Shown piece after piece: positions 17,755 to 20,076 of a stretch of DNA of 64,000 nt. The notes beneath the pieces were generated by a model. The model ran no database searches and was not told the DNA's origin. It saw nothing but the letters and a program-made list of their open reading frames with translations. The stretch is taken from NCBI RefSeq assembly GCF_023913515.1, contig NZ_CP099391.1, positions 2,666,001 through 2,730,000 of the forward strand. Direction: 5' to 3'. A program made the translations under genes and the position numbers. The DNA comes from Natronococcus sp. CG52. Its GTDB lineage: Archaea > Halobacteriota > Halobacteria > Halobacteriales > Natrialbaceae. Every line of letters begins with the position of its first letter. Within the stretch, counting starts at the first letter, position 1.

Positions 17755-18546
17755 ATGAACGCGTCCCGTCCCGACCTCGTTCCCGACGCCTCGCTCGAGC
17801 GCGACGACATGGAAGCCCTCCAGCGCGAGATTGCCAACGCTGCGGTTTTCGAAGACGATATCGCGTTCGACCCCGCGGTGCTCGGCGACCCGCTCGCCGC
17901 GTCCTCGAGTCCCGACGAACCGCCGGTCGTCGCCGGCGTCGATCAGTCCTTTCTCACCGACGCCGACGGGGAGCAGGATCGCGCCCTGAGCGCCGTCGTC
18001 GCGATGCAGGGCGGCGAGGTGATCGAACGCATCCACGCGGTGACGCCCCTCGAGATCCCCTACATTCCCGGCCTGCTTTCGTTTCGAGAGGGGCGGCCGA
18101 TCCTCGACGCGCTCGAGGCGCTCTCGGCGTCGCCGGATCTGCTCCTGTTCGACGGCAGCGGCCGGATTCACTTCCGGCAGGCGGGGATCGCGACCCACAT
18201 GGGCGTCGTCCTCGACGTCCCGAGTATCGGCGTCGCCAAGAGCCTGCTCTGTGGCAGCCCCCGCGAGGAGACCGAGAACCTGCCCGAGGGGTCCCGGGTG
18301 GCCATCGAGTCGAACTCGAGAGTCGACGTACCCGACGGCACCTTGCTCGGCTACGCGGTACAGACGCGACAGTACGACTCTCCCGATCGGTACATCAACC
18401 CGCTGTACGTCAGTCCCGGCCACCGCGTCGGCCCGGAAACGGCCGCCGACGTCGCCCTGGCGCTTTCCTCGTCGTACAAGCTCCCCGAACCCGTCCGGCT
18501 GGCCGACAGCTACGCCGACGAGGCGAAGCGAGGGCTCGACGAGTAG
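17755..18546 (+). CDS. nfi: Endonuclease V
   Basis: Deoxyinosine-specific repair nuclease cutting the second phosphodiester bond 3' to inosine. The 263 residues contain the family hallmarks: VAGVDQSF near 61-68 (first metal Asp), IPYIPGLLSFREGRPIL near 102-118 (second carboxylate Glu), LLFDGSGRIHFRQAGIATHMG near 131-150 (third Asp) and the hypoxanthine-pocket wedge region VPSIGVAKSLLCG near 158. The N terminus is about 30 residues longer than bacterial Nfi, as is common in haloarchaea. Likely paired with the preceding rhomboid gene only by proximity. Confidence 0.93.
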   Translation: MNASRPDLVPDASLERDDMEALQREIANAAVFEDDIAFDPAVLGDPLAASSSPDEPPVVAGVDQSFLTDADGEQDRALSAVVAMQGGEVIERIHAVTPLEIPYIPGLLSFREGRPILDALEALSASPDLLLFDGSGRIHFRQAGIATHMGVVLDVPSIGVAKSLLCGSPREETENLPEGSRVAIESNSRVDVPDGTLLGYAVQTRQYDSPDRYINPLYVSPGHRVGPETAADVALALSSSYKLPEPVRLADSYADEAKRGLDE

Positions 18547-19137
18547 CGGCCGGCCGCGTTCGATAGCCGACCGACCAACCGCCGCGGTGGGTGGGACCGA
18601 AAGGGGCTGGCCGGGTCGACGAGCGAGACGACGCAAGCACTGTCGTTCGAGAGAGCTTCGCTCTCTCGTGATCACGAAAGGCGCAAAGCGCCTTTCGAAC
18701 GAGACCGAGCGTAGCGAGGGAAGCGCACAGCGAGTCGCAGCCGTCGACCCGGCCAGGGGCTTTCACCGTGTTCTGGAACGCTCTCCGTGTTCTCATACGG
18801 AATAGCGTCCTGCTTGCACGAAACACGTGGAGTAGCCACACCCTCCCCAGCCGACTCACTCGCTTGCGCGCTCACGGCTTACGCCGTTCGCGTTACCGCG
18901 GCGCTACGCGCCGCGCTCTGCTCGTTCGCCCCTCGCGCAGCTTCGAACCGCGTCTCGCGTCACTCGCCGCGGATCAGTGCACGCCACGTCTCCCGATGCA
19001 TCGTGCTTCAAGCGCAGACGACCGAGCTTCGCGCATAACACGACCGACTCTCGACGAACAGTTCCTCCGCGGCCGGAAATTACGACTGGCGCGACAAACC
19101 GTCGATACTTAGGTATCCTCTCTCGAAACGGTCACCC
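18547..19137. other. 590-base gene-free region
   Basis: Contains the nested palindrome in its left third. The right part is rich in further short hairpins (ACGGC..GCCGT near 18877; GCGGCGC..GCGCCGC near 18898). Open frames across it have no family resemblance. The promoter for the SDR gene should lie at its right end; GATACTTAGG near 19105 is a candidate TATA element. Confidence 0.6.
18607..18756. repeat. Nested four-arm inverted-repeat element
   Basis: Outer perfect 15-bp arms CTGGCCGGGTCGACG (18607-18621) and its complement (18742-18756) enclose a second pair, TCGTTCG/CGAACGA (18643-18649, 18696-18702), which in turn encloses two tight hairpins: CGAGAGAGC/GCTCTCTCG (18648-18668, loop 3) and CGAAAGGCGC/GCGCCTTTCG (18675-18697, loop 3), joined by TGATCA. 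The layout resembles a cruciform or folded RNA. I recall similar intergenic sequences in other haloarchaeal genomes, but cannot verify here. Confidence 0.7.
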
Positions 19138-20076
19138 ATGGCCATCGCTGAGGAAGCCGACGATGAGGCGGGGGACGACGGAACCGCCGCAGCAGATGAC
19201 TCCAGGCGGGAAACGGAGACGAGCACGACCGCCGACGATCGTTACACGCGCAAGCGGTGCGTGCTGATCACCGGCTGCTCGTCGGGAATCGGACACGCGA
19301 CCGCTCGAGCCTTCCTCGAGAAGGACTGGCAGGTGATCGCGACCGCTCGGAACGCCGACGATATCGCGGATCTCGCCGAGGCGGGCTGTACGACGCTCGA
19401 ACTCGACGTCACCGATCCGGATCAGGTCGCCGAGGTCGTCGAACGAACCGTCGAGATCGGCGGCGCGATCGACTGTCTCGTCAACAACGCCGGCTACGCC
19501 CAGATGGGGCCGCTCGAGGACGTCTCGACGGTCGACCTCCACCGGCAGTTCGACGTCAACGTCTACGGCCCGCACCGCCTCGCTCGCGCCGCCCTACCGC
19601 ACATGCGCGCACAGGGCGAGGGACGGATCATCAACGTCTCGAGCGTCGCCGGCCGGGTCTCGTTCCCGGGGTCGGGCGCCTACTCGGGATCGAAACACGC
19701 CCTCGAGGCGATGAGCGACTCGCTTCGCGCCGAGATCGAGGAGTTCGGCATCGATGTCGTGCTGATCGAGCCGGGCCCGGTCGAGACGGAGTTCACGGAC
19801 CGAGTCGACGAGGAACTCCCCGAATCCCAGCGCACGCCGGCCTACGAGTCGCTGTACGAGCTCTACGACGAAGCGCAACTGATCGGCGGCGGACAGGGCG
19901 GTCCCTTCGCCTCCACGCCGAGGGAGGTTGCAGTGGCGATCGTCGAGTCCGCGATCCGTTCCGAGCCGCCGGCCCGGTATCCGGTCGGCCCGCTCGGCCA
20001 GGCCGGCGTGTACGCCCGCTTCCTCCCGGATCGACTCCAGGACGCGGTCTACGGACTCGTTCGAAAACTCGTCTGA
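19138..20076 (+). CDS. SDR-family oxidoreductase
   Basis: Short-chain dehydrogenase/reductase of 312 residues. After a 38-residue acidic extension the Rossmann fold begins CVLITGCSSGIGHATARAF (TGxxxGIG cofactor motif), followed by NNAGYA near 118, catalytic Ser in INVSSVAG near 163 and the YxxxK motif as YSGSKHALEAM near 176. The fold and the arginine in TARNADD suggest NADP(H). The substrate is unknown. A glycerate kinase gene follows 21 bases later, so both may form a two-gene unit, perhaps acting on related hydroxy-acids; that link is inference. Confidence 0.88.
   Translation: MAIAEEADDEAGDDGTAAADDSRRETETSTTADDRYTRKRCVLITGCSSGIGHATARAFLEKDWQVIATARNADDIADLAEAGCTTLELDVTDPDQVAEVVERTVEIGGAIDCLVNNAGYAQMGPLEDVSTVDLHRQFDVNVYGPHRLARAALPHMRAQGEGRIINVSSVAGRVSFPGSGAYSGSKHALEAMSDSLRAEIEEFGIDVVLIEPGPVETEFTDRVDEELPESQRTPAYESLYELYDEAQLIGGGQGGPFASTPREVAVAIVESAIRSEPPARYPVGPLGQAGVYARFLPDRLQDAVYGLVRKLV

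Follow-up and report, generated by a model that had tools for sequence, protein, structure and literature searches.

A dispersed, structure-conserved hairpin element of salt-loving archaea that recurs beside plasmid OB-fold genes

The oriT sites and single-strand origins are strand-specific hairpins located near transfer and single-strand-binding-protein (SSB) genes. According to the available parts of PMC9849209 and PMC11541004, Frpo is found upstream of ssb, where it folds and undergoes transcription in single-stranded form. REP sequences carry a tag, GTAG or CGTC, at the hairpin foot (PMC3733652, in part), and the SMR elements of Haloquadratum insert into palindromes (PMC3119063, in part). 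No published description of the element reported here was found in the literature searched, including the available portions of PMC3119063, PMC3733652, PMC12873603, PMC7565180, PMC2864571, PMC11541004 and PMC9849209. In addition, no paper with both 'halobacteria' and the 17-base core stood at the top of the matches listed.

The window, which is the whole stretch of 64,000 nucleotides of Natronococcus sp. CG52 that was analysed (NZ_CP099391.1, 2,666,001 to 2,730,000, forward strand), contains a gap that is gene-free, as the first-pass annotation of this DNA had claimed, and that runs from an endonuclease V stop (18546) to a short-chain dehydrogenase (SDR) start (19138). A palindromic element had been placed there at 18607-18756. 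The arms do lie within these limits, but the conserved parts reach from 18589 to 18764 and the element is therefore larger than was first described. Its parts and its setting are given below.

17755 to 18546, + strand: endonuclease V gene (PF04493), upstream neighbour
18589 to 18764, + strand: whole element, from the conserved 5' GGGTGGG to the 3' CTTTC
18589 to 18607, + strand: 5' core GGGTGGGACCGAAAGGGGC, one mismatch against GGGAMTGAAAGGGGC
18599 to 18603, + strand: GAAAG, 5' side of the basal helix, with the compensations GGAAG/CTTCC and GAACG/CGTTC in relatives
18604 to 18606, + strand: 5' GGG of the GGG/GGG internal loop
18607 to 18621, + strand: 5' arm of the main stem, 15 bp in the window copy and 13 bp in the family
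18630 to 18640, + strand: inner conserved motif GACGCAAGCAC
18642 to 18703, + strand: two-hairpin module GTCGTTCGA...TCGAACGAG, best read as inserted, with both inner hairpins and the middle stem
18723 to 18736, + strand: 3' side of the inner conserved motif, GCGCACAGCGAGTC
18742 to 18756, + strand: 3' arm of the main stem
18757 to 18759, + strand: 3' GGG of the internal loop
18760 to 18764, + strand: CTTTC, 3' side of the basal helix, pairing with GAAAG at 18599-18603
18841 to 18857, + strand: marker CCCTCCCCAGCCGACTC of a second dispersed repeat, further along the same gap
19138 to 20076, + strand: SDR gene (PF00106), downstream neighbour

The three levels of perfect inverted repeats noticed at first sight are exact in every arm: an outer arm of 15 bp (18607-18621/18742-18756), a middle stem of 7 bp (18644-18650/18695-18701) and two inner hairpins of 9 bp (18648-18656/18660-18668) and 10 bp (18675-18684/18688-18697). 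Three bases of each inner hairpin also belong to the middle stem, so that the nesting levels compete and do not form a simple four-arm junction. RNA folding of 18590-18775 gave z = -5.2, and none of 200 shuffles folded equally well. Perfect 15-bp inverted repeats of the same span were counted in 60 third-order Markov copies of the 64 kb (mean 0.23 per copy, maximum 3), so that the outer arm alone is not decisive and the reality of the element rests on its relatives.

These relatives are numerous, as the first-pass annotation had anticipated for haloarchaea. The window hairpins are one copy of a dispersed family of DNA elements with strongly conserved structure. Its 15-base core was found in 160 of 292 Halobacteria genomes and 53 of 77 genera, with a copy number that swings from 0 to 75 even within genera, while the reversed control gave one match in the same 292-genome table. 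Within a sample of the phylum, a 19-base core occurred in 25 of the 53 genomes belonging to the order and in none of the 241 others; viral contigs gave no match to this 19-mer. A scan over a set of 84,980 species returned at least 120 stretches, and the 80 among the matches listed were all haloarchaeal. Exact-core counts are lower bounds, since a plasmid subtype in pJ7-1 and Salinigranum does not have the core. Rfam gave no match on the element at the gathering score or at E up to 10, and the family, known here only from Halobacteria, is apparently unnamed. The suspicion that such sequences are mis-called as proteins was also borne out, one plasmid copy lying inside the 'hypothetical protein' Halar_0093 of DL31.

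The genome of origin holds one nearly full copy (92% identity) together with several diverged ones, and the core pattern with at most 2 mismatches occurs there at 41 sites vs 17 for the reversed control. Fourteen sites with at most 1 mismatch were read individually; most have GGGYGGGAMTGAAAGGGGC, a hairpin and GGGGCTTTC in common, with differing stems. The 3' end is missing at L036 and L037, and at L032 and L043 the hairpin is gone and both ends are kept. The second dispersed repeat of the window (18805-19000, marked by CCCTCCCCAGCCGACTC) is present in L271, where the hairpin is missing, and accompanies the element or a remnant of it in L032, L039 and L043.

The family fold is composed of a GAAAG/CTTTC base, a GGG/GGG loop, a 13-bp stem and inner helices, with GGGYGGGAMTGAAAGGGG as the consensus of the hairpin foot. 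The stem sequence varies between copies and its changes are compensated. From loci L001-L298, 232 distinct 5' ends were collected, 203 with and 29 without a 3' end within 450 bases, and the 191 of the 203 within the size range used gave 146 distinct stems. With the ends alone as anchors, these stems pair over 13 columns, 90.3% being paired in columns 2-13 vs 53.9% when the arms were dealt out anew (maximum 57.4% of 500). In alignment A1, made of 55 of 71 candidates, 23 of 29 pairs are changed on both sides and 93.5% of the cells pair; its covariation score is 0.550 vs at most 0.099 when slid, the structure being derived from the same alignment. Five helices covary, with conserved internal loops between them. 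The basal helix becomes GGAAG/CTTCC in L204, L237 and L127 and GAACG/CGTTC in L402 and L403, and four loci (L251, L227, L259, L081) have a flipped inside or a loop that is paired throughout. Mispairs of the G-T/T-G type outnumber A-C/C-A (82 vs 37 cells, a statistic that kinship of the sequences weakens), which favours the G-rich strand as the folded one.

The cruciform or clover-leaf with four arms that had been proposed for the window copy does not correspond to the fold of the family; aligned relatives have neither the two inner hairpins nor the 7-bp stem. Both hairpins occur alone elsewhere in the same genome, and the module (consensus GTSGTTCGA...TCGAACSAC) was found at the 3' end of tnpB in an IS200/IS605 element of Halovenus salina (L299:2501-2560) and beside a Salinirubellus transposase gene (L300). 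Since the module is found alone and at a transposon end, the nesting is best read as a separate small insertion, comprising the inner hairpins and the 7-bp stem, inside an older element. The second copy of the element in the same genome carries it too. At L028 and L301 (by eye), the module sits inside palindromes, like Haloquadratum SMR elements. Concerning the window copy itself, 30 orthologous endonuclease V loci were examined out of 71 genomes with a match. The element was intact in three (L269, L279, L286) and a remnant in two (L270, by eye, and L288). The 5' core was not found in the 25 others; among these, no SDR gene could be located in 7, and in 7 the gap was too long to be read. Outside these 30, G052 has the core within ~100 bp of the endonuclease V gene in the other orientation. 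This distribution gives no sign of function for the window copy.

A recurring place was observed on plasmids, in which copies precede an OB-fold gene annotated as SOSS-B family, DNA-binding protein or replication factor A. Seven of ten scanned neighbours gave Pfam OB-fold matches, all below the curated cut-off. Two neighbours (JP-L23) gave none but are ~65% identical to the others, and identity between the OB-fold proteins of the two main groups is about 33%. The neighbour at Salinirubellus L398 is TFIIB and was rejected from the group. An HMM of the OB-fold gene gave 32 matches at loci that were mostly chosen for the element and that in part trained the HMM; in 29 of them, representing 27 distinct places because two records are duplicated, the element is found on the opposite strand without exception, at 163-568 bp upstream of the end of the ORF. 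The remaining matches are L167, with the same relation at 1150 bp, a weak one at L379 (same strand) and one without the element.

BLAST searches were compared for the gene (best 60 of 167 and 31 of 31 records) and for the element (best 60 of 122 and 22 of 22). Among the matches listed, 35 of 89 gene records were also element records, and in 27 of these 35 the element is 450-751 bp upstream of the gene, always on the opposite strand (27/27). The 8 remaining shared records are non-adjacent by their best-place rows; 5 of them hold several gene places, and CP050017 has an adjacent copy in other searches. The other 54 gene records were absent from the element records among the matches listed (best 60 of 122). 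Neither the BLAST nor the HMM counts are independent events, as the queries came from linked copies and some records are related (pNG500 twice, DL31 and DL1 identical).

Genes on the far side are on the strand of the OB-fold gene in 73 of 87 cases from 15 plasmids, the overlapping Halar_0093 of DL31 being excluded; in the Haladaptatus salinisoli plasmid both are on the other strand. In that plasmid (L400:3501-5052), the element has the OB-fold gene on one side and, on the other, a gene pair for a DNA repair exonuclease and an AAA ATPase. Linked plasmid records were typed MPF_T in 10 of 16 cases vs 1 of 7 others. T4SS genes are found near the element and OB-fold gene in pNG500 and pHsi139, with a coupling-protein gene and a VirB4-like gene (just below the Pfam cut-off) on the far side of the OB-fold gene in pNG500. 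Of 22 Haloarcula-group copies, 21 have an identical outer 5' arm; identity in 25-column blocks is 0.99 at the element ends and 0.69-0.84 in the middle, with flanks of 0.59-0.93 upstream and mostly 0.3-0.75 downstream. The subtype of pJ7-1 and Salinigranum (L406 and L407, near 6000) has GAAAGGGCGAGG in place of the GGGYGGG core and keeps the same inner motif and CTTTC end. A Piwi-domain gene lies ~2.6 kb beyond the element in the Salinigranum rubrum plasmid (L407:8710-11004). In pNRC100 only a weak, decayed copy was seen at the OB-fold place. The window copy and most of the dispersed chromosomal copies examined are not beside an OB-fold gene.

Constraint was found in one genus, g40, in which the element occupies two loci, alpha in 8 genomes and beta in 5. 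These loci were chosen by the exact 15-base core, and those 15 columns are thus conserved by choice. Alpha lies between M20 and M32 peptidase genes. Over 8 species, its first two 50-column blocks reach a mean pairwise identity of 0.99 and 0.98, compared with 0.45-0.83 for the flanking intergenic blocks on both sides and 0.91-1.00 for the adjacent genes. For beta, the element blocks reach 0.95 and 0.90 vs 0.48-0.81. Within one genome the alpha and beta copies are not the same, an argument against gene conversion between the two loci. In the four alpha and beta loci read for genes, the element follows the stop codon of a gene of like direction at a distance of 69-119 nt. Together, the constraint in g40 and the fixed place and strand on plasmids suggest a function for the element.

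The fixed place and direction beside a single-strand-binding-protein gene suggest an action when DNA is single-stranded. The reading that we tentatively favour, with rather less than even confidence, is a single-strand-active plasmid signal resembling Frpo/ssi, with dispersed and sometimes exapted chromosomal copies. When plasmid DNA becomes single-stranded, by conjugative transfer or lagging synthesis, the G-rich strand would fold into the hairpin, which may act as a single-strand initiation or promoter-like signal. RNA starting from it would run towards the plasmid's own single-strand-binding (OB-fold) gene with the G-rich strand as template. Such plasmids might be the source of the chromosomal copies, or these might have been carried along by mobile DNA, as within a terminal-inverted-repeat element in one lineage; a few would be kept for host function while others decay. 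A more specific proposal appears doubtful to us: an archaeal single-strand promoter or priming site on the incoming strand that would express plasmid RPA before the second strand is made, and whose descendants would have spread class-wide through chromosomes, some being kept by hosts. An oriT, an sso or single-strand origin, or a regulator- or protein-binding site would also fit the same plasmid position. By eye, no TATA/BRE promoter rebuilt by the stems was seen, unlike the -10/-35 of Frpo.

Another explanation, which we hold to be rather unlikely, is REP/REPIN- or MITE-like non-autonomous mobile DNA whose hairpins would be recognised by a transposase in trans and which would have no host function. 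It agrees with the variable copy number and with the module common to the window copy and the second copy of its genome. It also agrees with the position of 227 of 232 copies clear of genes by our own gene caller, with the head-to-head partners at 41 of 232 ends (23-36 bases between cores, both members counted), and with stems that vary little among 30 copies read of the 75 in G176 and differ in the 15 copies each read from G131 and G196. In a G131-like lineage the element lies inside terminal inverted repeats GTGTTCAGATAAG, and three of the 9 testable copies (L228, L121, L147) have direct repeats matching at 11 of 12 bases, a level without control; a looser test was weak (4/9 vs a shuffled mean of 1.69 and maximum of 4). 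Across lineages, however, inverted repeats of at least 10 bases flank 11 of 212 copies vs 6 of 212 shuffled, a small excess that does not make them a general feature. Fifteen of 18 higher-copy genomes and 10 of 16 low-copy ones carry the Y1 transposase (PF01797), which was not found in G147 (71 copies), G089 (20) and G165 (12), and dependence on it is not supported by this distribution. The strong constraint on orthologous g40 copies and the recurring place and strand at plasmid OB-fold genes also speak against this explanation. Long elements with a gene between the arms were not seen within 4 kb or up to the locus end, often only 1.5 kb away. At a genus g30 locus, the 'empty' genomes G016, G083, G102 and G269 look like deletion scars keeping GAAAGCC, so that no clean empty site and no insertion event is proven there; two genomes have the head-to-head pair of this locus the other way round, an inversion in place between species (L312/L334). 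Separately, the 3' arm and GGGGCTTTC are tandemly repeated over about 54 or 80 bases in L100, L107 and L132 of high-copy genomes, and GCGGTGCGG-type repeats lie upstream in G196.

A structured RNA, either a small RNA or a cis element of transcripts, is in our judgement unlikely. The five covarying helices with their internal loops, the excess of G-U over A-C, the position after stop codons in g40 and the strand of the downstream gene (same in 139 vs 90; 25 of 30 in G176) would all suit it. Nevertheless, the flanking genes are ++ 76, -+ 61, -- 56 and +- 32 relative to the element: no more than 108 of 228 upstream genes share the strand of the element, and 56 of 225 copies are antisense to both neighbours. 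No AT-rich promoter signature was observed upstream of the copies, and nine in ten of those with a same-strand downstream gene end ~80 nt or more before its start, which puts them outside leaderless mRNAs. Of the first proposal of a dispersed element or structured RNA, the dispersed occurrence has held, and these orientations oppose a general mRNA role. A hairpin-looped G-quadruplex, GGG-N-GGG-N7-GGG-stem-GGG, seems very improbable. In 35 of 41 sequences that were not chosen for this feature a GGG does stand before the first spacer, and four G tracts persist in L032, L119 and L145, remnants that have lost the hairpin; yet the remnants L043 and L133 have lost a tract and the spacer is conserved too (ACTGAAA or AATGAAA in 145 of 157 loop-free matches). 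This reading was demoted because GAAAG pairs with CTTTC by compensation and the plasmid subtype of pJ7-1 and Salinigranum has no tracts. Finally, a chance palindrome in GC-rich DNA has practically no probability left: a 15-bp inverted repeat alone is only moderately rare, but relatives in 160 of 292 genomes, with double changes in 23 of 29 pairs, refute it. The search for copies and compensatory substitutions that the first-pass annotation had advised thus found both, and its interpretation as a whole is partly supported.

An apparently unnamed element that is present class-wide would offer a handle on the transfer and establishment of archaeal plasmids, a poorly known process, and on the reason for the hairpins in haloarchaeal intergenic DNA, which gene finders can take for proteins. 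Like oriT and single-strand origins, the element is a strand-specific hairpin near transfer and SSB genes. With REP/REPIN and BIME it shares intergenic dispersed hairpins, inverted pairs and genome-specific stems, but in the available part of PMC3733652 the foot is GTAG/CGTC and not GGGYGGGAMTGAAAGGGG, and it further differs from what is described there by its several covarying helices over about 110 nt or more, its plasmid SSB synteny and a Y1 transposase that is not consistently present in element-bearing genomes. The Haloquadratum SMR, PATE and MITE are likewise small non-coding haloarchaeal repeats, and the inner two-hairpin module seems palindrome-inserted as SMRs are (PMC3119063, in part). 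By their description in that part, the outer element is set apart in being without general terminal inverted repeats and in its constraint in one genus. IS605-derived PATE have ends in common with an IS605-type transposon; here the comparison covers the inner module, which was found at the 3' end of tnpB in L299 and beside a transposase in L300. Compared with Frpo/ssi of F-like plasmids, as given in the available parts of PMC9849209 and PMC11541004, the element is archaeal, has another fold, no promoter boxes recognised by eye, a distance of about 450-750 bp from the gene and many chromosomal copies. Nevertheless, both are non-coding hairpins upstream of a plasmid SSB gene on a consistent strand and, by analogy with Frpo/ssi, in which genes are transcribed from the transferred strand, one strand of the element would be the one meant to fold.
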